From the NCBI GenBank assembly GCA_947495035.1, contig CANLXI010000001.1:62001-126000 (forward strand): 64,000 nucleotides of DNA. Direction: 5' to 3'. The notes under the pieces were generated by a model that had not been told where the DNA came from, did no database searches, and saw only the letters and a program-made list of their open reading frames with translations. Positions 9,326-62,181 of the stretch are shown piece after piece. Numbering within the stretch: the stretch's first letter is position 1; every line of letters starts with the position of its first letter. Both the position numbers and the translations under genes were made by a program. The stretch is from an uncultured Granulosicoccus sp. (GTDB taxonomy: Bacteria > Pseudomonadota > Gammaproteobacteria > Granulosicoccales > Granulosicoccaceae).

Positions 9326-9579
9326 TCCGTCATTTCGACGTCGCCGGATGTGACAGGAATCCGACATGGGGCTCGCGGGGTCGACTCGACGAACAGGAAT
9401 CTGGCGTTGTTTCCGAGCCGGGCGGCAGCAGCTGCCTGAACTTGAGTCTCAAGTAACATGAAGTAACCTGCTGCAAGGGCCATTTACGGGGGCGCGCCGA
9501 CAAACCGGCCTTGTGACTCGCATAAACTTTGCTTCACTCGGGTTCGGGAAGAACGCACGCTCGTTTACTGCAGGCCAGA

Positions 9580-11556
9580 ATGATTACAACTATCAGAAAA
9601 GCTGTCGACGATCTGCACAGCTCAGTGGAATCGGCAACGGCAAACAGTGATGACTTGCATGTCATGCAGGCTCGTTTGCGCGTCCTCGAGAATCAGAACA
9701 CCGAACTCGAGATGAGAGAGCAGGAACTGCACGATCAGCTTGCCAGTCATCGCGTTGCTCTGGCTGAACTGAAAGGGCGCAGTGCCGAGCTGATGAATCT
9801 GATCAACGAGCAGAAAAGCACCGAGAGTCGATACCGTCAGTTGTTCGATCTGGCACCGGTGGCCTATCTGGCCGTTGATGAAAACGGCTATATCGAGCAG
9901 GTGAATCTGGCGGCAACCTGTCTGCTGCGACAACCCAGCGTGCAGTTGATCGATACGCCATTTTCCAATTTCCTGGGGGAAGGCGATCACTCGCATCTGA
10001 ATGAGCATCTGTCGTCGGTTGCCGAAACACATCTTTCCCTGAAATGGCAGGTGAACCTGCGCCTGCGCAACGGTCTGTCGCAACGCGTCATGCTGGTATC
10101 CAGCTGTATCCGGGCCAGGCAGGCATCGAGATTGAAGTACCAGATCATGATCGTTGACATCACGCAGCAGTTGAATACCGAAAAGCTGCTGCGTAATGCC
10201 AACGACTATCTGGAAAAGCTGGCCCACCACGATCCATTGACCAATCTGCCCAACCGCACCATGTTCACCGATCGTCTGCAGTCTCTGGTGGCGCAGCGTG
10301 CCATGGAAAACGGCAAGGTCGGCATCATCTATTTCGACCTGGATGGGTTCAAGCCGATCAATGATACGCTGGGTCACCACATCGGTGATCAGGTACTGTG
10401 TCAGGTGGCTGATCGTGTTCGTCAGTACCTTGGCAGCAACGATACGATCGCGAGAATGGGCGGCGATGAGTTCACCATCATTCTGAGTAACCCGGTTAAT
10501 GAGTCGGCAGCTGTCGCCGTGGCGCAGAGAATTGCTCGTGTCATCAGCATGCCGATGCAACTGGCCGACAGTGAATTGAGTGTGACCAGCAGCATGGGCA
10601 TCAGTCTGTATCCTGATCATGCCTTGAGAATCGACGATCTGATCAAGGGCGCTGATGCTGCCATGTATCAGGCCAAGCAGGCAGGGCGTGATCAGGTGCG
10701 CCTGTTCAGCAGGGAGTCGGTGGACTCGTTCAGCCGTCTGTCGAAACTGGAAACCTGCCTGCCGCGTGCGGTGCTCGATGAGCAACTGGAGTTGCACTAT
10801 CAACCGATCTACAACACGGTGTCTTTGACCGTCGAATCCATCGAAGCGCTGATACGCTGGGATCATCCGGATCTGGGTATCATTTCACCCAACGAATTCA
10901 TCCCGCTGGCCGAAAAGTCCGACCGCATTGTCGAGATTGGCAGATGGGTGCTGGAAACGGCCTGCTGGCAGGCGAACGAATGGCGAAAACAGGGATATGC
11001 CAAGCCGATTGCCATCAATGTATCGACTCGCCAATTGCTCGAGCCGGATTTCGCATCCCAAGTGCAAAGAGCACTCGATTTCTACCAGCTGCCCAGTCAG
11101 GCGCTGGAAATCGAAATCACGGAATCGGCCATCATGATCGATCATCAGCGTTCCCGGGATACGCTCAGGCAATTGCAGAATGCCGGGCATATCGTCACCA
11201 TCGATGATTTCGGAACGGGTCACTCCTCATTGGCCCGGCTGGTACATCTGCCCGTGTCCAGGCTGAAGATAGACCGCATGTTCATCAAGGATCTGGATCA
11301 GTCCGAACAGATGCGCTCGGTGATTTCATCGATCATCACCATGGCTCATCGCCTGGACATGCGTGTCGTGTCAGAAGGTGTCGAGCAGGCCAGTCAGCTG
11401 GAATTCCTGTCCGCCAACCAGTGCGATGCGGTGCAGGGTTTCATGATGTCGCGAGCCGAGCTGCCCAGCGACATCTCGCGCCTGCTGAAACTGGACAACG
11501 AGAAAATCAGTGAACTTTGTCCAGATCTTCCGAGGCTTGGACTGACTCGGATCTAG
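9580..11556 (+). CDS. PAS-GGDEF-EAL cyclic di-GMP enzyme
   Basis: This 658-residue cytoplasmic protein starts with a coiled coil (about residues 20-85), followed by a PAS domain (about 90-210), GGDEF (about 220-390) and EAL (about 405-655). RMGGDEF is intact, but the position of the inhibitory RxxD site reads GSND, so product inhibition is probably absent. The phosphodiesterase residues look complete: EALIRW, NVSTRQL, ITES, DDFGTGHSSL, KIDRMF and EGVE. It could make or break c-di-GMP. There is no membrane segment. Its 3' end overlaps the convergent BLUF-CheB-CheR gene by 50 bases, which links it to the kai operon by position only. Confidence 0.93.
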   Translation: MITTIRKAVDDLHSSVESATANSDDLHVMQARLRVLENQNTELEMREQELHDQLASHRVALAELKGRSAELMNLINEQKSTESRYRQLFDLAPVAYLAVDENGYIEQVNLAATCLLRQPSVQLIDTPFSNFLGEGDHSHLNEHLSSVAETHLSLKWQVNLRLRNGLSQRVMLVSSCIRARQASRLKYQIMIVDITQQLNTEKLLRNANDYLEKLAHHDPLTNLPNRTMFTDRLQSLVAQRAMENGKVGIIYFDLDGFKPINDTLGHHIGDQVLCQVADRVRQYLGSNDTIARMGGDEFTIILSNPVNESAAVAVAQRIARVISMPMQLADSELSVTSSMGISLYPDHALRIDDLIKGADAAMYQAKQAGRDQVRLFSRESVDSFSRLSKLETCLPRAVLDEQLELHYQPIYNTVSLTVESIEALIRWDHPDLGIISPNEFIPLAEKSDRIVEIGRWVLETACWQANEWRKQGYAKPIAINVSTRQLLEPDFASQVQRALDFYQLPSQALEIEITESAIMIDHQRSRDTLRQLQNAGHIVTIDDFGTGHSSLARLVHLPVSRLKIDRMFIKDLDQSEQMRSVISSIITMAHRLDMRVVSEGVEQASQLEFLSANQCDAVQGFMMSRAELPSDISRLLKLDNEKISELCPDLPRLGLTRI

Positions 11557-14503
11557 TCTTGAGATCCCGGAACATGATCAGCACCCCCTGAGCAAGACCG
11601 CTTCCGGCTCGATAGGGGTGGATACCCACCTGCAGCTGATCGACGTTGTTTCTGCTGATCTCCCGGCTGATCGATTTGCCGATGGAAAGCACTCGCCGCA
11701 TGTCGCTCATCAGCTCCTTGTATTGCAGCTTGTGTGCAAGATCGACAAATGGCCTGCCGATATCGGACGGCAGCAGATTGACCGTCTGTGTTGCCACGTC
11801 GGTAAAGCGACGAATGCACAGTTCCGAATCGAGAAAGATCACGCCGAGATTGGTACTGTCGAGCAGATTGTCCAGATCGTGATTGAGATCGGACAGTTCA
11901 TGAATTTTCGTCTGGTATTCGAAGTTGACGGTGTACAGCTCCTCATTGACCGACTGCAGCTCCTCGTTGGTGCTCTGCAGTTCTTCATTGGCTGCCGAGA
12001 GCTGCTCGTTCACCGAGCGCTGTTCGTCATTGGATGATTCGAGATCATTGATGGCTGCCTGCAGTGCCTTCTTGGTCTCTTCCAGTTCGAGCCGCAGCTG
12101 ATCGACCTCACTGCTGCTGCTTGCCGTACTATCGATGTCCGAGTTGACGATCGTTGGCGAGGCGCTGGTGGCGGGACCGATGACCACCAGCGCATACTGT
12201 GCGCTACTTTCACCCAAGGGCATGTGCGGGATGACCTCGATATCGACCATGCGTTCACCCTGACCAACCGGCTTGCACCGCAGTTGCTTGTGGCTTACCG
12301 ACTTGAACTCCTTGAAGGCGCGGGAAATGGCGAAGGTCATCGACGGGCGCAGGCTCTCCGGAATCATCTTGGTGATGTCCAGTGTGGGTTCGCCGCGATG
12401 TACCTGCAGAATGCCGGCGGGGTCCGATATGACCATCATGACGGTTCGGGATCCATCCACCAACAGATTGGTGCTGCCGGTGTACTGGGACAAGGCATCC
12501 AGTGACAGTCTCAGCAGGTCGTTGCCTGGTGAATCGTTGTTCTTGACCTGCAGGGCCTGGATTCTGTGGGAAGGTTCACGCGTGACGTCGCGAAAACGTT
12601 CCACGGACAGATGCAGGGGCAGTCGCAGATTGCGCAGTTTCTTGTACTGATTCCATTCGCGCTGCACGGGATAGAACTCGCTCTGCAGATTGCCCAGTGT
12701 CTCGGACGGACCCAGAAACAGAATGCCGTGTACGTTCAGCGCAAAGTGCAGCATCTTGATGGCAATCTGCTGCAGGTCCGGCTGCATGTAGATCAGTACG
12801 TTACGGCACGTGACCAGATGCATGCGGGTGAACGGGGCATTCTTGATGAAGTTGTGCGGCGCGAAGATCACGTTTTCGCGTATCTTGCGCGAAATGAGGT
12901 AACCACCAGCCTTGCGGCTGAAGAATCGTGTCCGTCTCTCTTCGCTGACATGCTCCAGCGAGCGCTCGCTGTAGATGCCGGTGCTTGCGTGTTCCAGTGC
13001 CCTGCGTTCGATATCGGTTGCGTAGATCTTGAAGTTGATCTGCTTGTCCAGGGTCTCCAGCAGTTCAGTCAGAATGATGCCGATGGTATAGGCCTCTTCG
13101 CCGGTGGAGCAGGCAGTCACCCAGACTCGAAAGGTCTCTCCCGGCATGATCTCCGAGTTGATCAGCGGCAGTATGGAATCCTTGAGTTTTTCCCAGGCCT
13201 CGGTATCACGGAAAAAGCTCGTCACCGTGATCAGGATGTCTTCACGCAGCTCATCTCGTTCAGCCGGAGAGTTGCGAACGAAATCGATGTATTCTTCGCT
13301 GGTGGCCACGCTGGCCAGTACACGTCGGCGTTCGATGCGACGAAACAGCGTCTCGCTCTTGTATTGAGCAAAATCGACGTCGTTGTCTTCCAGCAGGGAT
13401 ACCACTTCGCTGACGTATTCGGCGCGTCTGGCCGGCCAGAGTACCAGCGAGTTGTGTATGTGATCGTTGCTGAGATTGTTGACGAATTCCGCGATATCGG
13501 CAGGTGCGAGAATCTGGTGAACCATGCCGGTATCGATGCTCGCAGTCGGCATGCCATTGAACTCGGCCGTGTCGGGACTTTGTGCAAGCACGACCCCACC
13601 GGCTTCGTTGAGTACCTTGGCACCTCGCGAGCCATCACTGCCGGTACCGGACAGGATCACGGCTATCGCGCGATCGCCGTATTCTCGAGCAACCGAGCGA
13701 AAGCAGATGTCGATCGGGAACTGAGGGCCCCGGCTCAGCCTGTGTTGTCTGCTGAGTACGAAGCAGCCGTTGGCCACTTCCAGGTTTTCACCCGGTGGAA
13801 TGACATAGATCTTGCGGGCCTCGATACGCATGTTCTCGGCGGCGGTACACACCTTCATCGTGGTGAGTCGCTGCAGGATCATGTCCATCATCGTTTCGGT
13901 TTCAGGAGCGAAGTGCTGAATGACGACGAAGGCTGCATTCAGCTCCGGTTTCAGGCTTCGTATGATCGACTGCAGCGGGTGCAGGCCACCTGCCGATGCC
14001 CCCATGACCACGACAAAGGGTGGTTTGATGCCGATGTCAGTGTCCTTGGAATCCGGTTGCAGCAGCTCTCTGTTGCCAGTCTTTTGCGACTTGGACATCT
14101 GATCGAGCATTTCCAGAATCAGCCGGCGTGATTCCGTTTCGGCAAACGCATTACCAACGGTGGACTTCATCACGTCTTCGATCAGGTCCTGAATCCGTAT
14201 ATCGGGAATTCCCGCGCCAGAGATGTTGAGCATGTCCCAGCGTGAAAAGCGGCGCTGCTCGATAGGTCCGAGTCTCAACGTGCGCAGAATATTCTGTCGC
14301 TGATCGTTGTCGATCGATGCGATTGCTTCATCAATGGCATTTTCGGGCCCTTCCAGGTACTGGAAAAAACGATTGTTCTTCCAGCTGAGGTAGCCCGTCA
14401 GCCCCAGTTCGCGATTTCTCTTGACGTACTCGTCATAGAGCTCCTTCAGCATGCCCTGATCGAAGGGGGTTTTCGCTTCACTGGCACATAGTATTGCAAT
14501 CAT
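11507..14503 (-). CDS. BLUF-CheB-CheR-PAS fusion, chemotaxis-type methylesterase/methyltransferase
   Basis: The ATG at 14503 gives 998 residues. A GTG at 14563 would add 20, but has no ribosome site and extends past the BLUF first strand. Domains: BLUF-like (1-95), CheB methylesterase (about 162-345), CheR SAM methyltransferase (about 365-630), a linker, a long coiled coil rich in EELQSxNEEL repeats (about 795-880) and a PAS domain (about 885-990). CheB keeps its catalytic Ser170 (GASAGG), His197 (IQHF) and Asp in GTGSDG; CheR has [13 protein letters not shown] and CRNVLIYM. The BLUF core keeps Asn30 and Gln48, but the photoactive Tyr is Cys6. CheB/CheR-PAS proteins usually act with a hybrid kinase; here a separate kinase lies just upstream. 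It is the last gene of the kai operon. Confidence 0.92.
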
Positions 14504-14574
14504 TGTCGAATGGTCGTATCCCTTTGCCCGGAATTCTTGCAAATCACCTGTACTTTCAGCCACCGCATACTAGG

Positions 14575-15651
14575 CTATTTTGCAGGTTTAGTTAAGCCGC
14601 TTGCTCGAGAAGAACGCTTGGGAATTTCCGCATGAACGACACTGCCAGTGCCGATTTCGGACTCGATCCAGATCTTGCCACCGTGTGCTTCGATGATCTT
14701 CTTGCTGGTCGCCAATCCGACGCCGGATCCATCGTGCGTGTCCCTGGAATGCAAGTGATTGAAAGGAATGAAGATATTCGAGAGGTTGGCCTCCGATATG
14801 CCCACCCCGTTGTCCGCGATGCGGATATGACATGACCGAGGCCCGGTTTCACAGCTGATGTGGACCTCCGGTTTTTGCTCGTTGTGGATGATGGCGTTAC
14901 CAATGATGTGCTGAAAAAATGTAACCATCTGCTGTACGTTACAGTCGATTGCAGGCAGCTTTTCGCGAGTCAGTTGCAGTCCGGTCCGAAAGATCTCATC
15001 AGCCAGATTGTCCAGTGCGTCATCCAGAACATCATCCAGGCTGATGTTGCTGGCAATGCGCTTGACGCGATCCACGCGGCTGTAATGCAGCAAGTCTTCC
15101 AGAAGGCGCTGCATGCGTGTCGTGGTCTGGCGTATCAGCTGGATATCTTCCATGGCATCGGCGTTGAGTTCGGCCGCATGGTCATCCAGCAACCAGCCCG
15201 TCAGCAGATACAGATTGCGCAGAGGGGAGCGCACGTCGTGTGAAACGATGGAGGCAAACTGTTCCAGATCACGGGTGGAGCGTTGCAGTTCACCCAGCAG
15301 GACACTTCGTTCGGATATATCCCTCAGCGTTGCGAGATAGGCAGGCTGCTCATCCCACTCGATGTCGACGATACGCATCTCGGCAAGGAGGGGCTTCTGA
15401 TCCGCTTTCAGGATTTCTATTTCCGTCTTTTCACCGATGAGGATGGGGTAACCGAAGGATTCCCCGGTCAGACGCTCGGCGGCATGTCCGAACAGCGACA
15501 CCGCCGCCGGATTCACATACTGGATGATGCCTTCGTGATCGATGACGACGATGCCATCCGGTGAGCTGCGAACCACGTTGTCGAAACGGGCTTCGGATGC
15601 TGCCAGTCTTTTCTGCAGCGCAGTTGTATCGATGTCGTCTTCCATGCGCAT
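14575..15651 (-). CDS. PAS-domain sensor histidine kinase of the kai operon
   Basis: This 358-residue soluble kinase has a PAS domain (about residues 12-125), HisKA with the phosphorylated His in SIVSHDVRSPLRN (about residue 146) and an HATPase domain with an N-box Asn in IIGNAIIHN, the G1 box ADNGVGI and the G2 box GSGVGLATSKKI. No transmembrane helix or signal peptide is present, so it senses something in the cytoplasm. The ATG at 15651 has AGGGC just upstream. It lies 71 bases after kaiC and 71 bases before the CheB/CheR gene. It lacks the KaiB-like sensor of cyanobacterial SasA. The receiver domain of the KaiA-like protein is a plausible phosphorylation target, which is inference. Confidence 0.92.
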   Translation of the reverse strand: MRMEDDIDTTALQKRLAASEARFDNVVRSSPDGIVVIDHEGIIQYVNPAAVSLFGHAAERLTGESFGYPILIGEKTEIEILKADQKPLLAEMRIVDIEWDEQPAYLATLRDISERSVLLGELQRSTRDLEQFASIVSHDVRSPLRNLYLLTGWLLDDHAAELNADAMEDIQLIRQTTTRMQRLLEDLLHYSRVDRVKRIASNISLDDVLDDALDNLADEIFRTGLQLTREKLPAIDCNVQQMVTFFQHIIGNAIIHNEQKPEVHISCETGPRSCHIRIADNGVGISEANLSNIFIPFNHLHSRDTHDGSGVGLATSKKIIEAHGGKIWIESEIGTGSVVHAEIPKRSSRASGLTKPAK

Positions 15652-15722
15652 GATGCCCTGCGAGTTGTCCAACCGAAGGGTCGGTCTGGTCCGATGATAC
15701 AGCCTGCGGATGACTTGCCGGA

Positions 15723-17237
15723 TCAGACGTCTTCGAACATTTCCTGCAGGCGTTCCGATTCCGGCGTCTGATGGAACTGCGGATTGCCTGTCAGAATGCC
15801 GGTGATATTGCGGAATGGCTTGCCGACGTGCATGCCCGACTCGTCGATACTGAATTCCCGGATTTCCTTTTCATGACGAGAGCCGCGCATCTTCAGGACG
15901 GCAATGCCGCGGCTGATCTCGCCGAACAGTTCGACATAGCGTAACAGGATGATGGTGTCGGTTACCGTCGAGATATGCGCTTCGGTGATCGAGGTGCCGC
16001 CCATGAGGGTAGGCGTCACGGATGTGAATACCCCGACGATTTCCTGCTGTTTGATGAAGGACGTCAGGCCGATGACGAATTCCCGGAAGCTCTTGGGAGT
16101 TGCACCGCGTTCCAGTGCCGAGAGGCTGTCGACGGCAATGCGTGTGGGCTTGAATTCCAGGATCGCTTTCTTCATCTCGATCAGATGTTCTTCAAGTCCG
16201 GTCGTCTCGGGATAGGTGCAGATGACCTGGAGTCGCTCTTCATTTTCCATCTGCTGGAAGTCGACTCCCCAGCCTTCGGCATTGCGGAACAATTGATCGC
16301 GGCTCTCTTCAAAGGCAAAGAACAGGCTGCGCTCGTCCTTGCCTGCACCTCCGATGAAGCTGGTGGCCATCAGGGTCTTGCCGGTGCCGGTGGCGCCCGA
16401 GATAAGTACGATGGAGTCGCGGAAGAATCCGCCACCGCACATGGTATCGAGCTTGTCGGTCCCCGAACTGATACGAACATGCGACGAGCGGTGATTCAGT
16501 TTGACGGTGGAAAGCGGGACACCCACGATGCCGCCATCGGCAACGATGCTGAAAGGATGCTCTCCCTTGCGATGGTCGGTGCCACGAAACTTCAGTATTT
16601 CCATGGTACGGCGCCGACTCTCGGCCTCGAGAACGTTGCGCAGGATGATGACATTGTCAGCCACGAATTCTTCGATGCCATGACGGGCAATGTTGCCGTA
16701 TTCCTGATTTCTTTCCACGGTCATCAGCGAGGTGACCTCCATCTTTTTCATCGCAACCGCGATGCGCAGCAATTCGCTGCGTACCACATGGTGGTCGTCG
16801 AACTTGCTGAAAATGGCGCCCAGTGAATCGATGGAGATCCGTGACGCGCCGGTTCGGTTCACGGCGTGTTCTATGCGAGCCAGCAGGGCGGCAAGATCAT
16901 AGTCGCCGCTGAGCAGCACCGGATCTTCAGGCTTCGGTGATGCATCGACAAACGCCCATTTACCGGCAGCTTCCCAGGCAGCGATGTCCCAACCGAAGCT
17001 GAGCATGTTCTGCCGAATATCATCGGGCGTTTCCTCGAAGGTCACGAATACACAGCTTTCGTCGTTCAGACGGATTCCACAGGCCAGAAACTGCACCGCA
17101 AACACCGTCTTCGAACTGCCGGCCGTGCCGGCCAGCAGGGTCGTTCTGCCTTTGGGGATACCGCCATTGGATATCGCGTCAAAACCGGTAATGCCCGTTT
17201 TCAGTTTGAGTATGGGACTCTGGGAATGAACCGTCAT
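15723..17237 (-). CDS. kaiC: Circadian clock ATPase/kinase KaiC
   Basis: This 504-residue protein has two tandem RecA-like domains, close to the 519 residues of cyanobacterial KaiC. CI has the P-loop GTAGSSKT (37-44) and the catalytic pair Glu68-Glu69; CII has GATGTGKT (281-288) and Glu310-Glu311. The CII phosphorylation site is kept as Ser423-Thr424 within HISTVTDTII, equivalent to S431/T432. In cyanobacteria the hexamer autophosphorylates under KaiA and dephosphorylates under KaiB. The C-terminal tail after the FRN motif is about seven residues shorter than in Synechococcus. The ATG overlaps the kaiB stop by four bases. It could also be a KaiC3-type timer and not a true circadian clock. Confidence 0.96.
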   Translation of the reverse strand: MTVHSQSPILKLKTGITGFDAISNGGIPKGRTTLLAGTAGSSKTVFAVQFLACGIRLNDESCVFVTFEETPDDIRQNMLSFGWDIAAWEAAGKWAFVDASPKPEDPVLLSGDYDLAALLARIEHAVNRTGASRISIDSLGAIFSKFDDHHVVRSELLRIAVAMKKMEVTSLMTVERNQEYGNIARHGIEEFVADNVIILRNVLEAESRRRTMEILKFRGTDHRKGEHPFSIVADGGIVGVPLSTVKLNHRSSHVRISSGTDKLDTMCGGGFFRDSIVLISGATGTGKTLMATSFIGGAGKDERSLFFAFEESRDQLFRNAEGWGVDFQQMENEERLQVICTYPETTGLEEHLIEMKKAILEFKPTRIAVDSLSALERGATPKSFREFVIGLTSFIKQQEIVGVFTSVTPTLMGGTSITEAHISTVTDTIILLRYVELFGEISRGIAVLKMRGSRHEKEIREFSIDESGMHVGKPFRNITGILTGNPQFHQTPESERLQEMFEDV

Positions 17238-17530
17238 GTTGTCTTGGGGTCTCCAGGCAGCGATGACTCTCGAATATCAAGCCCTCGGAGCAGGGACTTT
17301 CTGTCCGACAGGTCTCCGATGATTCGACGGCTCGGCGCCGGTGCTACCTTGATCAGTGTGGGGGTGGCCAGAACGAAGTCGTCCTCTGCCAGTTGCGGAT
17401 CGGCCAGTACATCGATCACCGTCAGCTCGAAATCGACATTATCGGCCAGCATCTGTTGCAGATTTTCGACAGCCGAGTCCGAGCGCGGCGAACGTCCGGC
17501 AATGAACAGCTTCATGATCAGTTTGCTCAC
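17234..17530 (-). CDS. kaiB: Clock protein KaiB
   Basis: The 98-residue protein is the normal KaiB size and carries LFIAGRSPRSD near residue 8, VIDVLADPQLAEDD near 38 and LATPTLIKVAPAPSRRIIGDLSDR around 54-77, the last being the fold-switching, KaiC-binding half. KaiB binds the CI ring of KaiC and counters KaiA. The GTG at 17530 gives the usual N-terminus; an ATG at 17515 would trim five residues. No strong ribosome site is seen, which suggests translational coupling to the upstream gene, whose stop is seven bases away. It overlaps kaiC by four bases. Confidence 0.96.
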   Translation of the reverse strand: MSKLIMKLFIAGRSPRSDSAVENLQQMLADNVDFELTVIDVLADPQLAEDDFVLATPTLIKVAPAPSRRIIGDLSDRKSLLRGLDIRESSLPGDPKTT

Positions 17531-17537
17531 TGCGCAG

Positions 17538-18464
17538 TTACTGATCGTGACCGGAAGCGGGCGTGGTCTCGTCCGCTGCAGCCAAGGGCGGGGTTGCCGG
17601 TATCTGCTTGCATTGCGACAGATAGAATGAGCACAAATGCCCGAGCATCCCGGTCAGCAGATAACGGGCTTCCTCGTTGTGCAGCCGCTGCTTTTCAGTG
17701 TTCATGACCCTGGACCTGATGTCTACCGCCAGGGTGTGGATGTTCACGATATCCCGTGGTGTGGCCTGGTAGCCACCCAGAGTGATGGCCAGTTCCCGGA
17801 TCTGCTGTGAAGCATTGAATGTCGTCTTGTAGCCGAGTCTTTCCATCGCCTTGTCCAGCATTCTGGAATATTCCTCTACTGCATACCGGTGTACCGCAGG
17901 ATGTTTGTCAATCAGTGGCTTGTTCGAGTGAGCGTCCGTGGACAAGGCAGAAGGCAGTTGTGCAGCGTCAGATTTCAGGCGTCGGATTTCACGTTCACGC
18001 TGAATGACTTCACGAGTCTGCTCGAGTTCTTCCAGCAGCCGATAGCGCTCGACAGCGTAGCGCAGCGTCTTGCAGATCAGGGCAGTGCTGTATTGCCCCT
18101 TCACCAGATAGTCCTGCGCGCCATGCTGGACAGCCTTCAGTGCGGTCTCTTCATCGTCCAGGCCCGAGACAACCACCACGGGAAGTCTGGTCTGTTCGGT
18201 GAACGCCTCGACAGTGGACAGCCCCTGACTGTCGGGCAGGGTCAGGTCGAGCAGGATGACGTCGAAATCGTGCCGTGCAAGTTCGCTCAGACCCTTGCGC
18301 ATCGATTGCGCCCACACCAGCTTGAACATGTCCAGGCCACGCAGCTGACGTTCCAGAATGGTGAAGTCGAGCGAGTCATCTTCAATGGCCAGTACCAGCA
18401 ACTCGTCAGCGAGAGGCGGTTGTTCGACCTGTGCTCGGGCAGAATGCATTGAATTCAGTGACAT
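17538..18464 (-). CDS. Receiver domain - KaiA-like C-terminal domain chimera (KaiA3-like)
   Basis: This 308-residue first gene of the kai operon has a CheY-type receiver (about 22-140) with Asp29-Asp30, the phospho-acceptor Asp73 in LLDLTLPD, Ser100 and Lys122. A charged helix follows (about 140-165), then a helical C-terminus (about 185-290). By recalled sequence, the latter resembles the end of Synechococcus KaiA: VNIHTLAVD (241-248) aligns with VEIHMELMD, and after nearly equal spacing (33 versus 34 residues) GHLCSFY (275-281) aligns with AHLCEMY. This would be the KaiC-activating helical bundle. Synechocystis KaiA3 has the same architecture. If wrong, it is a response regulator with an unknown helical output domain. 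The ATG at 18464 has GAGG unusually close. Confidence 0.8.
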   Translation of the reverse strand: MSLNSMHSARAQVEQPPLADELLVLAIEDDSLDFTILERQLRGLDMFKLVWAQSMRKGLSELARHDFDVILLDLTLPDSQGLSTVEAFTEQTRLPVVVVSGLDDEETALKAVQHGAQDYLVKGQYSTALICKTLRYAVERYRLLEELEQTREVIQREREIRRLKSDAAQLPSALSTDAHSNKPLIDKHPAVHRYAVEEYSRMLDKAMERLGYKTTFNASQQIRELAITLGGYQATPRDIVNIHTLAVDIRSRVMNTEKQRLHNEEARYLLTGMLGHLCSFYLSQCKQIPATPPLAAADETTPASGHDQ

Positions 18465-23930: not shown

Positions 23931-26096
23931 ATGAAAACACATAAAGGATTGCATATCTGCCTGATCAGTGTGCACGGGCTGATTCGGGCGGATGAACTGG
24001 AACTGGGGCGCGATGCGGACACCGGCGGTCAGGTGTTGTACGTGGTGGAGCTGGCCCGGGCGCTGGCCGAGGCCGAGGGCGTCGCTCGGGTAGATCTGGT
24101 CACGCGCCTCATTCGCGATGACCATCTGGCCGATGACTATGGACAGGAAAGGGAGGCGTTGGCAGAGAATGCCAATATATTGCGCATCGAGGCCGGTGGC
24201 CTGAATTATCTCGCCAAGGAGCAACTCTGGGATCATCTGGATTCCTTCGTCGACAATCTGATCGATCATTACCGCGAAGAGGGTGTCACGCCGGATCTGA
24301 TACACAGCCACTATGCCGATGCCGGCTATATCGGCAGTCGTGTGTCGTACCTCATGGGCTTGCCCCTGATCCACACGGGGCATTCGCTGGGCCGGGTTAA
24401 ACGGCACCGGCTGCTGGCCAGTGGTCTGGACAGCCAGACCATTGATGAGCGCTACAACATGGCCCGGCGGATCACGGCCGAGGAGACCACCCTGGCATCG
24501 GCCGAGCGGGTCATCACCAGTACGCATCAGGAAATTGAAGAACAGTATGAGCTGTATGACTTCTACCGCCCGGAGGCCATGCACGTCATTCCACCGGGCA
24601 CCAATCTGTCGCGTTTCCAGCCACCACAGGGCAAGGAGCACGAGTCGGAAATCGCACAGGAGGTTCATCGTTTCCTGAAAGAGCCCGACAAGCCGATGAT
24701 CCTGGCGGTCTCGCGCGCGGATGCCCGCAAGAACATCGCGGCTCTGTTGCATGCCTATGGCAACGATGAGGCCTTGCAGGAACGCGCCAATCTGGTGGTG
24801 GTCATGGGCAACCGGGAAGATCTCAATGATCTGGAAGTCGGTGCACGGGATGTGCTGACCGAATTGTTGCAGCTGATCGACCGTTATGACCTCTACGGAC
24901 GAGTGGCGTATCCCAAGCAGCATCGCTCGGATGATGTGCCGATCCTGTATCGACTCGCTACCTTGTCAGGTGGTGTCTTCGTCAACCCGGCTCTGACCGA
25001 GCCCTTCGGTCTGACCCTGATCGAAGCCGCAGCCAGTGGTCTGCCGATTGTCGCTACCGAGGACGGAGGGCCGCGAGACATCGTCGGCAATTGCGAGAAT
25101 GGACTGCTGATCGACCCTCTGGAGCAGGAAGGCATCGCGCAGGCCATCAAGGATGTCATCGGTGACTGGGAGATGTGGCAGACGCGTTCGGTGTCCGGTC
25201 TGCAGGGGGTTCGGCATCACTACAGCTGGCCGGCCCATGCCGAGGAATACCTGAAGATGGTGTCCTCCATAACCGGCAAGGAATCCAGCGTCGAAGCGAT
25301 CGATAACAGCCAATCCTATAGTGCGAGCTACACCGACAGGGCCCTGTTCACCGATCTCAATCGCAGTCTGCTGGGCGATGAAGAGTCCCTGCAGACACTG
25401 ATCCGGCTGGTGCGGCAGAATCGCAAGCGCATGAAGTTCGGCATCAATACCGGTCTGCGACTGGATGCGGCCTTGCGTCTGCTGAAGAAGCACGGTATCC
25501 CCGAGCCGGATGTGCTGATCACCAGTGCCGGTACGGAAATCACCTTTGCTCCGAAGCTGACCGAGGACACCGGCTGGACACGTCATATCGAAAAGCAGTG
25601 GACGCCACAGCAGGTTCGACGGGTACTGAGTGATGTGCCCGGCATCGGCTTGCGCGACGCCGATCAGCAAAGCGATTTCAAGATCAGCTATCTGTACGAT
25701 GCCGAGAAGGCGCCTTCCGTTGACGACATCAGTGCCCGTCTGTTTCAGGAAGATCAGGCCGTCAACATCATCTTCTCGCACGGTAACTTTCTGAACATCG
25801 TGCCCATTCGTGCCTCGAAAGGGCTGGCGCTGCGGCATGTCGTGGCGAAGTTCAACATACCGCTGGAGCGCGTCCTCGCCATCGGCGGATCCGGGGCCGA
25901 TGAGGACATGATGCGGGGCAATACCCTGGCGGCCATTGTCGGCAATCGCGCGCACGAGGAGTTGTCGCAGCTGACCGAAGGCGCCAGCATTCACTTTACG
26001 GACAAGCCCTACGCCGCCGGCATTCTGGAAGCCATCGAGTTCTACGATTTTCTGGGGGAGTGCAAGGCACCTGAGCGCGCTGCGGAGCCTGCCTGA
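23931..26096 (+). CDS. Sucrose-phosphate synthase with C-terminal HAD-like domain
   Basis: This 721-residue protein joins a GT-B glycosyltransferase (about 1-450) to an HAD-IIB-like domain (about 465-710). LISVHGLIRADELELGRDADTGGQVLYVVELARAL is the sucrose synthase/SPS opening, HTGHSLGRVKRHRLL binds sugar phosphate, and ALTEPFGLTLIEAAASGLP is the GT4 E-x7-E motif. It makes sucrose-6-phosphate from a nucleotide-glucose and fructose-6-phosphate. In the HAD domain the motif D475-L-N477 replaces DxD, so it is probably not a working phosphatase. The dedicated phosphatase gene overlaps its stop by one base. Sucrose is a likely osmolyte. Confidence 0.92.
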   Translation: MKTHKGLHICLISVHGLIRADELELGRDADTGGQVLYVVELARALAEAEGVARVDLVTRLIRDDHLADDYGQEREALAENANILRIEAGGLNYLAKEQLWDHLDSFVDNLIDHYREEGVTPDLIHSHYADAGYIGSRVSYLMGLPLIHTGHSLGRVKRHRLLASGLDSQTIDERYNMARRITAEETTLASAERVITSTHQEIEEQYELYDFYRPEAMHVIPPGTNLSRFQPPQGKEHESEIAQEVHRFLKEPDKPMILAVSRADARKNIAALLHAYGNDEALQERANLVVVMGNREDLNDLEVGARDVLTELLQLIDRYDLYGRVAYPKQHRSDDVPILYRLATLSGGVFVNPALTEPFGLTLIEAAASGLPIVATEDGGPRDIVGNCENGLLIDPLEQEGIAQAIKDVIGDWEMWQTRSVSGLQGVRHHYSWPAHAEEYLKMVSSITGKESSVEAIDNSQSYSASYTDRALFTDLNRSLLGDEESLQTLIRLVRQNRKRMKFGINTGLRLDAALRLLKKHGIPEPDVLITSAGTEITFAPKLTEDTGWTRHIEKQWTPQQVRRVLSDVPGIGLRDADQQSDFKISYLYDAEKAPSVDDISARLFQEDQAVNIIFSHGNFLNIVPIRASKGLALRHVVAKFNIPLERVLAIGGSGADEDMMRGNTLAAIVGNRAHEELSQLTEGASIHFTDKPYAAGILEAIEFYDFLGECKAPERAAEPA

Positions 26097-60963: not shown

Positions 60964-62181
60964 ATGGTTCGTATTCTTTTGTTGGGTTCATCACTGGCAT
61001 TCGCCACGGCAGCGTTTTCGCAGACGACGTTGGATGTCGTGGCGTGGAAAGGCAACGAAGCGGAGCCGGCAGGCTTGCCCGAACTGATCGAGGCCTTCGA
61101 AGCTGCCAATCCGGATATCGATGTCGAACTGAGCTACGTCGCACGCAAGGATGTCGACAAGGTGATTCCACCGCGTCTGCAATCCGGCAATCCGCCGGAC
61201 GTGACCATGGTGGACAGTTCATTGGTCGATCTCTGGGGAGGCGCAGGATTTCTGACCGACCTGGGTACCGATAGTGATTGGTATGCGCGCATGCAACCCG
61301 CGGTTTCCAGTGTTCTGACGTCGGACGAGGGCATTCTGGTGTTCCCGCTGGAAGTCATCGGCATGGGCAATTTCGTGAACATGGATCTGCTGGCGAAGGT
61401 TGGCATCGAGCAACCACCGCTGACGCTCGATGAACTGAAAGACGCCTGTCAGGCTCTGGCTGCCGAAGGCATTGCACCGATGATCTTCGCCGGTGGCTTC
61501 CCGGCAATGCTGTTCGTCGGTGCCAACGGTCTGGACCCGAACGACAATCTGGCGGCCAGCTACGGCGCGGGCGAACGCAGTTTTGTCGACGATGAGAATT
61601 TCAATGCGTCCCTGGATGCTGTACGCGATCTGGTCGATGCCCAGTGTTTCGATCCGGAGCTGCAGGCGGGGCTGGACCCCTGGGCGACTGCACCGCAGGA
61701 ATTTCGTGCAGGCAATGTGGCCATTCTTCCCCAGGGTGCCTGGAACATCGGCAACTTCTCGTCGATCGAGGGGCTGAACTACCAGTTCGCACCCATGCCT
61801 TCAGCGTTCACTGATGCGGGGCTGGCGCTGGACCTGGTTGGACCCGGCTGGGCCATTCCCAAGGATGCCTCGAACAAGGAGGCGGCCCGCAAATGGATCG
61901 ATTTCTTCACTGTCGAGGACAACCTCAACGTGTTCCTCGAAGCCGAAGGCGCCTATAGCCCGTTCACCGGTGGCCGCTCCACCATGCCTGAACTGGCCGC
62001 ACCCTACACAGAGGCGCGTGAGCAGGGCAGCCTGATTCTCTGGCCTTTCTCGACACTGGAGTTTCCCAAGCCTCTGCAATCCGAGTGGGAAGACAGCATC
62101 ACCGGTTTTCTGCTGAATATCGACGAACCCAACGAAGAAACACTGCAACGCTGGGACTACACGATTGAAGACAATCTGTAA
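60964..62181 (+). CDS. Extracellular (sugar-type) ABC transporter substrate-binding protein
   Basis: The 405-residue protein starts with a signal peptide (MVRILLLGSSLAFATAAFS, cleavage near residue 19-20). Family-1 binding protein features follow: LPELIEAFEAANPDIDVELSYV, IPPRLQSGNPPDVTMVDSSLVDLWGGAGFLTDL and FRAGNVAILPQGAWNIG. It should deliver a sugar or sugar-like compound to the two permeases downstream. GGAG at 60951 is a clear ribosome site. The sulfatase next door suggests that a sulfated or linked substrate may be involved. Confidence 0.93.
   Translation: MVRILLLGSSLAFATAAFSQTTLDVVAWKGNEAEPAGLPELIEAFEAANPDIDVELSYVARKDVDKVIPPRLQSGNPPDVTMVDSSLVDLWGGAGFLTDLGTDSDWYARMQPAVSSVLTSDEGILVFPLEVIGMGNFVNMDLLAKVGIEQPPLTLDELKDACQALAAEGIAPMIFAGGFPAMLFVGANGLDPNDNLAASYGAGERSFVDDENFNASLDAVRDLVDAQCFDPELQAGLDPWATAPQEFRAGNVAILPQGAWNIGNFSSIEGLNYQFAPMPSAFTDAGLALDLVGPGWAIPKDASNKEAARKWIDFFTVEDNLNVFLEAEGAYSPFTGGRSTMPELAAPYTEAREQGSLILWPFSTLEFPKPLQSEWEDSITGFLLNIDEPNEETLQRWDYTIEDNL

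Follow-up and report, generated by a model that had tools for sequence, protein, structure and literature searches.

A KaiA3-type kai operon in a gammaproteobacterium, with a predicted KaiA-fold domain behind a receiver and a linked histidine kinase gene

Introduction

The view that KaiA is found only in cyanobacteria was set out by Schmelling et al. in 2017 (PMC5520375) and was shared by an earlier note on the DNA analyzed here, which took proteobacterial kaiBC loci to lack KaiA and to act as hourglass timers. Besides 15 cyanobacterial species, however, KaiA3 is reported from Rhodospirillum, Bradyrhizobium, and three further genera (PMC11372060). The Rhodobacter KaiBC hourglass is regulated by a coiled coil (PMC10076222), magnetotactic Nitrospirota have been termed kaiBC-based (PMC10278575), and the passages considered from Dvornyk and Mei (PMC8113500) do not concern proteobacteria. 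We describe a kai operon in a 64,000-nucleotide stretch (the window; positions 62,001 to 126,000 of contig CANLXI010000001.1, assembly GCA_947495035.1) of the 7.16-Mb gammaproteobacterial genome of an uncultured Granulosicoccus sp. This is a real KaiA3-type operon, another member of the known KaiA3 kind, and its kaiA3-like gene lies directly upstream of kaiB and kaiC, as is characteristic of KaiA3. No report of a gammaproteobacterial KaiA3 was found in the literature searched, which left out most subscription journals, nor was any gene neighborhood like the one that follows kaiC here (a histidine kinase, a BLUF-CheB-CheR-PAS protein, and a GGDEF-EAL protein).

Results

The earlier note had read the kaiA3-like product as a complete receiver fused to a helical C terminus and as a receiver-KaiA chimera comparable in architecture to Synechocystis KaiA3, its gene sharing an operon with those of KaiB and KaiC. 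Both readings held up. The N-terminal half matches the Pfam Response_reg model (Table 1), and D73, S100, and K122 are all present and identical in 3/3 aligned sequences, including that of the window. The protein thus begins with a receiver carrying a phosphorylatable Asp, as KaiA3 does, instead of the Asp-less pseudoreceiver of canonical KaiA (PF07688).

The C-terminal domain is predicted to have the fold of the KaiA C terminus. In a Foldseek search with the full-length model, the 50 best rows were all receiver-bearing chains, and the C-terminal domain was therefore folded alone. The AlphaFold2 (AF2) model of the isolated domain reached a predicted local distance difference test (pLDDT) value of 94.8, and KaiA was its best match in both Foldseek and VIA. 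Profile searches against the Protein Data Bank (PDB) pointed the same way, with KaiA making up 8/11 and 8/12 of the matches, while the hhalign comparison, taken alone, was unconvincing. A KaiA-like four-helix bundle, the other mark of KaiA3, is accordingly present as a prediction. Neither Pfam nor single-sequence PDB searches returned a direct KaiA match, the 60 listed of 248 PDB matches all lying on the receiver, and the isolated domain matched no Pfam family at an E value of ≤10. The Pfam KaiA model PF07688 likewise found no match at an E value of ≤10 in the window's own genome and matched 0/8 C-terminal pieces of family members. The two KaiA motifs that the earlier note pointed out do occur in the window strain, but IH-x4-D is found in only 2/8 aligned family members (the window strain and the related Granulosicoccus genome G012), and HLC-x2-Y in 5/8, all of them Granulosicoccus. 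The wider family conserves P-R-D, one His, E-x-R, and G-x-L-x3-Y.

KaiC exceeds the NCBIfam circ_KaiC cutoff (625.6 versus 546.25), and KaiB, which scores under that of circ_KaiB (85 versus 145.3), aligns along its whole length with its relatives. Both genes had been described as intact, and the Ser423/Thr424 phosphosite, the Glu pairs of both ATPase domains, and the canonical CII P-loop are indeed in place. The statement that both P-loops are intact was slightly overstated, as the CI P-loop reads GTAGSSKT, with Ser for the second Gly; this Gly is replaced by Ser or Ala in 10/12 of the other KaiA3-linked KaiCs aligned. With two ATPase domains, the Ser/Thr pair, and a short tail in a protein of 504 amino acids (aa), KaiC is of the KaiC1/KaiC3 type and lacks the long C-terminal coiled-coil extension of the KaiC2 hourglass type. 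Its best PDB match is 8zn5 (688 bits), which we take to be a reconstructed ancestral KaiC and which scores well over the natural KaiC 1tf7. It is also closer to 1tf7, the KaiC of Synechococcus elongatus (575 bits), than to 8dba, that of Rhodobacter (307 bits) (PMC10076222).

A short motif in the KaiC tail accompanies the KaiA-like gene. At loci with a KaiA-like gene, 36/36 KaiCs end about 20 residues past the A-loop with an E-x-x-R-L-x-x-M-F-like motif (ESERLQEMF in the window), whereas at loci without one the motif occurs in 0/14, the tails stopping there or extending at length (Fisher P = 1.2e-11, the rows being related). The KaiA3 label needs at least four changes on well-supported branches, and in independent pairs motif and KaiA3 agree 4/4 (P = 0.125); the tree used for the pairs had kept the G529, G054, and Cereibacter tails uncut, with that of G631 cut late. 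The pattern was composed after inspection of the tails. Eleven of the 14 negatives gave no domain match genome-wide (G523, G542, G465, G529, G457, G428, G631, G156 twice, G120, and G054), with the inclusion of G054 and the other genomes of its class in the 369-genome draw read from their handles; the remaining 3 are plasmid records scanned over the fetched stretch. Such genome-wide absence is bounded by the sensitivity of the scan, which scored at most 11 to 12 candidates per genome and missed a weak KaiA-like gene beside kaiC in G266 (E = 1.8e-5). In G458, the KaiA-like match used lies downstream of the kaiC concerned, in a tandem copy, and G007, whose contig begins inside kaiC, was placed in neither group, although the motif is present there too. 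The KaiA of canonical clocks attaches to KaiC at its C-terminal tail, so that docking is the natural reading of the motif, and we infer that it is a docking site for KaiA3. The PDB entry 5c5e, whose title names KaiA-KaiC-tail binding, was among the Foldseek matches.

The operon genes follow one another in the order kaiA3-like, kaiB, kaiC, PAS kinase, and BLUF-CheB-CheR-PAS (gaps of 7, -4, 50, and 11 bases), and the convergent PAS-GGDEF-EAL gene overlaps the end of the BLUF gene by 50 bases (Table 1). All six genes recur in identical order in G012, G026, and G008. G007 covers the part from kaiC to an EAL piece of the GGDEF-EAL gene, and G019 covers kaiA3-kaiB-kaiC and the start (PAS) of the kinase. 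Identity to the window's copies is 49 to 78% for the kinase and 60 to 88% for the BLUF protein (both in G012, G026, G008, and G007) and 88, 56, and 48% for the GGDEF-EAL protein in G012, G026, and G008. The module lies between matching flanks in the window genome (G000) and G012, whereas G026 has other flanks on either side and G008 has another flank on the only side covered by sequence. Contamination of the assembly (6.89%) is ruled out as the source of the operon, since G012 carries the same module and flanks with 94% KaiC identity. Within the genus, kaiC occurs in 6/27 genomes and the KaiA-like domain in 5/27, the sixth kaiC genome being G007; the gene for the KaiA-like, putative activator is found at 5/5 kai loci open to examination. 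A scan for promoters and terminators gave no excess over shuffled sequence. Near the operon, positions 23931 to 26096 encode a long protein, presumably resembling sucrose-phosphate synthase, that has a relative near the clock operon of locus L020 as well.

Table 1. Positions of the kai operon, its neighbors, and the domains and sites discussed (window coordinates)
Feature	Position	Strand	Evidence or remark
kaiA3-like gene, receiver + KaiA-like C-terminal domain	17538..18464	-	308 aa open reading frame (ORF)
Receiver domain, residues 24-126, phosphoacceptor Asp73	18087..18395	-	Pfam Response_reg PF00072 2.1e-18, 67 bits
KaiA-like four-helix domain (predicted), residues 182-291	17592..17921	-	AF2, Foldseek, VIA, profile-to-PDB
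kaiB	17234..17530	-	98 aa; Pfam KaiB 1.3e-23
kaiC, two ATPase domains	15723..17237	-	504 aa; Pfam KaiC ATPase 1.1e-116
KaiC phosphosite pair Ser423/Thr424	15966..15971	-	KaiC alignment
KaiC A-loop region + short tail, residues 475-504, motif ESERLQEMF	15726..15815	-	Putative KaiA3 docking site
PAS-HisKA-HATPase histidine kinase, in kai operon	14575..15672	-	Pfam
BLUF-CheB-CheR-PAS fusion protein	11507..14563	-	Pfam
PAS-GGDEF-EAL protein, convergent neighbor	9529..11556	+	Pfam; GGDEF + EAL motifs present

A PAS domain like that of the window kinase lies within 700 bases after kaiC at 26/37 loci with KaiA3 (the 36 above and G007) and at 4/14 without, which marks this kinase as a frequent partner of the KaiC type and not strictly of KaiA3. 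The fusion protein encoded after it matches BLUF (PF04940, 9.9e-20), CheB, CheR, and PAS_10, and three of its relatives start at a Met 20 residues into the window ORF. By alignment to 6w6z, the flavin-facing Tyr position of BLUF is occupied by Ala, Ala, Ala, Thr, and Ala in G000, G012, G026, G008, and G007; we take the Tyr of 6w6z to be the flavin-interacting residue equivalent to AppA Tyr21, which the protein therefore lacks. The Gln in the FFQ-x-LEG stretch, presumably AppA Gln63, is conserved. An AppA triple mutant including Y21F is reported to be photoinactive and to retain its flavin (PMC7005313). Taken with the replaced Tyr, this makes flavin or redox sensing possible and ordinary blue-light sensing doubtful, and a light-sensing role is not claimed. 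PF00124 (PufL/PufM-like) was found in 9/27 genus genomes (G026, G008, G019, G007, G018, G002, G015, G003, and G009), with no match in the window's own. We make no claim of a link between kaiC and phototrophy either, since the own genome is without PufL/M and the difference between genomes with kaiC (4/6) and without (5/21) gave a Fisher P of 0.14. A rhodopsin search matched 0/9, its positive controls being without a match as well.

Beyond the genus, the domain was found in 4/369 gammaproteobacterial genomes (E ≤ 0.001), the window genome included, and in 23/398 genomes of Pseudomonadota, or 22 after the removal of one noise match (G562; E = 7e-4, a 36-aa frame with 3 stops). kaiC (E ≤ 1e-90) is present in 28/398, and 21 of these 28 genomes carry the KaiA-like domain, which, together with the listing of Rhodospirillum and Bradyrhizobium, speaks against the earlier note's assumption that KaiA is missing from kaiBC loci of proteobacteria; the assumption does suit Cereibacter sphaeroides with its KaiC2 type. 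The five genomes with a KaiC of 36 to 38% identity have no match to the domain. A kaiA3-like gene lies ahead of kaiB-kaiC in “Candidatus Magnetobacterium casense,” where it is directly upstream of kaiB, and in an alphaproteobacterial metagenome-assembled genome (MAG). It also lies before kaiC, with kaiB further along, in a Bryobacterales MAG, where the receiver of the KaiA3-like protein (L018:198-1106) appears degenerate and may parallel the pseudoreceiver of cyanobacterial KaiA. In G151 (L032) and G363 (L031), two kaiA3-kaiB-kaiC sets stand next to each other in tandem, and the KaiC of the first set has Ser-Ser, not Ser-Thr, at its phosphosite. A search with the C-terminal part of the “Ca. 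Magnetobacterium casense” protein gave 146 relatives; the 120 listed include 64 with a receiver, at least 42 with PAS models, and 1 with Hpt, and the 11 Pfam families that they match do not include KaiA (E ≤ 1e-4). Judged by these matches, the domain sits behind varied sensors and is left unnamed by the Pfam scans used. Individual fusions include those to Hpt (P0086), PAS (P0012 and P0025), and receiver-PAS (P0070).

Discussion

The genes and their order, the receiver and phosphosite residues, and the tail motif with its co-occurrence are directly observed, and the KaiA3-type protein, with its predicted KaiA fold, is probably an activator of KaiC under phosphorelay control. It would likely bind KaiC, the product of its own operon, at the short C-terminal tail and likely stimulate autophosphorylation at Ser423/Thr424, with KaiB counteracting it. 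The PAS histidine kinase, whose gene comes immediately after kaiC, is the likeliest to phosphorylate Asp73, which would tune KaiC activation and in this way set the timer or reset it. The KaiA3 paper states that the cognate KaiA3 kinase has not yet been identified (PMC11372060), and we offer the operon-linked kinase as a candidate for this missing partner of the receiver. To judge only from the conserved neighborhood, the Granulosicoccus timer probably has connections with the BLUF-CheB-CheR-PAS protein and, on its output or input side, with the GGDEF-EAL (cyclic di-GMP [c-di-GMP]) protein.

The C-terminal domain might instead be KaiA-like in fold only, an RsbU/RsbR-type adaptor that makes the protein an output regulator read by KaiB or KaiC within an hourglass or stress switch. 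We regard this as decidedly improbable, given that KaiA outranks both RsbU and RsbR in Z score and Foldseek rank, that the KaiC tail motif tracks the kaiA3-like gene, and that KaiA3 of Synechocystis promotes KaiC3 phosphorylation (PMC11372060). Nor does it seem at all likely that the operon is a non-clock cassette, with PAS kinase, receiver, BLUF-CheB-CheR, and GGDEF-EAL making up a switch that responds to redox state or blue light and involves c-di-GMP, and with KaiBC as an ATP-sensing integrator that keeps no daily time. The six-gene module is kept in G012, G026, and G008 despite differing flanks (in G026, and on one side in G008), the own genome has no PufL/M match, and kaiC is sporadic in the genus (6/27), all of which would suit such a switch; it accounts less readily for the retained KaiC phosphosite pair, a KaiB that aligns throughout with its relatives, and a KaiA-like activator at every genus locus that could be examined.

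The proposal of the earlier note went further, to a candidate for a full circadian oscillator in a noncyanobacterial host whose kai loci were thought to have no KaiA. The Kai set is complete, its KaiA-like member by predicted fold, but parts alone are no proof of sustained oscillation, and the gene set has already been published for Rhodospirillum, Bradyrhizobium, Roseiflexus, and others (PMC11372060); we hold this proposal to be unlikely as it was framed. A KaiA3-type activator of KaiC under phosphorelay control is the reading that we prefer. A more speculative extension, to which we lend only tentative credence, is that the KaiA activation domain did not arise as a cyanobacterial invention bound to a single clock but is a widespread plug-in on receivers, PAS domains, or Hpt that coevolves with the short KaiC tail on which it docks. 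KaiA-driven oscillators would then be common in bacteria long regarded as “kaiBC-only,” the one in Granulosicoccus being steered by the PAS kinase and a tyrosine-less BLUF redox sensor and driving c-di-GMP.

The operon extends KaiA-type regulation to another bacterial class and raises the possibility that timers driven by KaiA are commoner than textbooks suggest. Whether “kaiBC-only” loci are KaiA-driven becomes testable, for instance in the magnetotactic Nitrospirota, set against the KaiA3-like gene of “Ca. Magnetobacterium casense.” The same is true of the KaiC feature that needs KaiA, for which the tail motif is a direct prediction.

Among the known systems, the KaiBC hourglass of Cereibacter (Rhodobacter) sphaeroides (PMC10076222) resembles that of the window in having KaiB, a two-domain KaiC, and a kinase gene nearby. 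It differs in its order (kaiC-kaiB-kinase), in that a scan of 11.4 kb revealed no KaiA-like domain, and in its KaiC, which is 35% identical and bears a long C-terminal extension absent from the window KaiC. At the Rru_A3293 locus of Rhodospirillum rubrum (PMC10931921), a kaiA3 orthologue likewise stands ahead of kaiB and kaiC in a proteobacterium; the likeness is one of gene order, and the host is an alphaproteobacterium. Canonical KaiA (PF07688; S. elongatus) shares the predicted C-terminal four-helix fold and, with the window strain, the IH and HLC-x2-Y positions, whereas the window protein has a true receiver (Asp73) in place of the pseudoreceiver and is missed by the Pfam KaiA model. With the KaiA3-KaiB3-KaiC3 system of Synechocystis sp. 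PCC 6803 (PMC11372060), the window shares a receiver with a phosphoacceptor Asp that is followed by a KaiA-like domain at the C terminus, a gene position upstream of kaiB(-kaiC), and a KaiC with Ser423/Thr424 and no coiled-coil extension, a likeness to KaiA3 (Sll0485) that is drawn from published architecture and synteny rather than from sequence identity. Unlike that system, the one described here belongs to a gammaproteobacterium, and its operon runs on into a PAS kinase and a BLUF-CheB-CheR-PAS protein that meets a convergent GGDEF-EAL gene.
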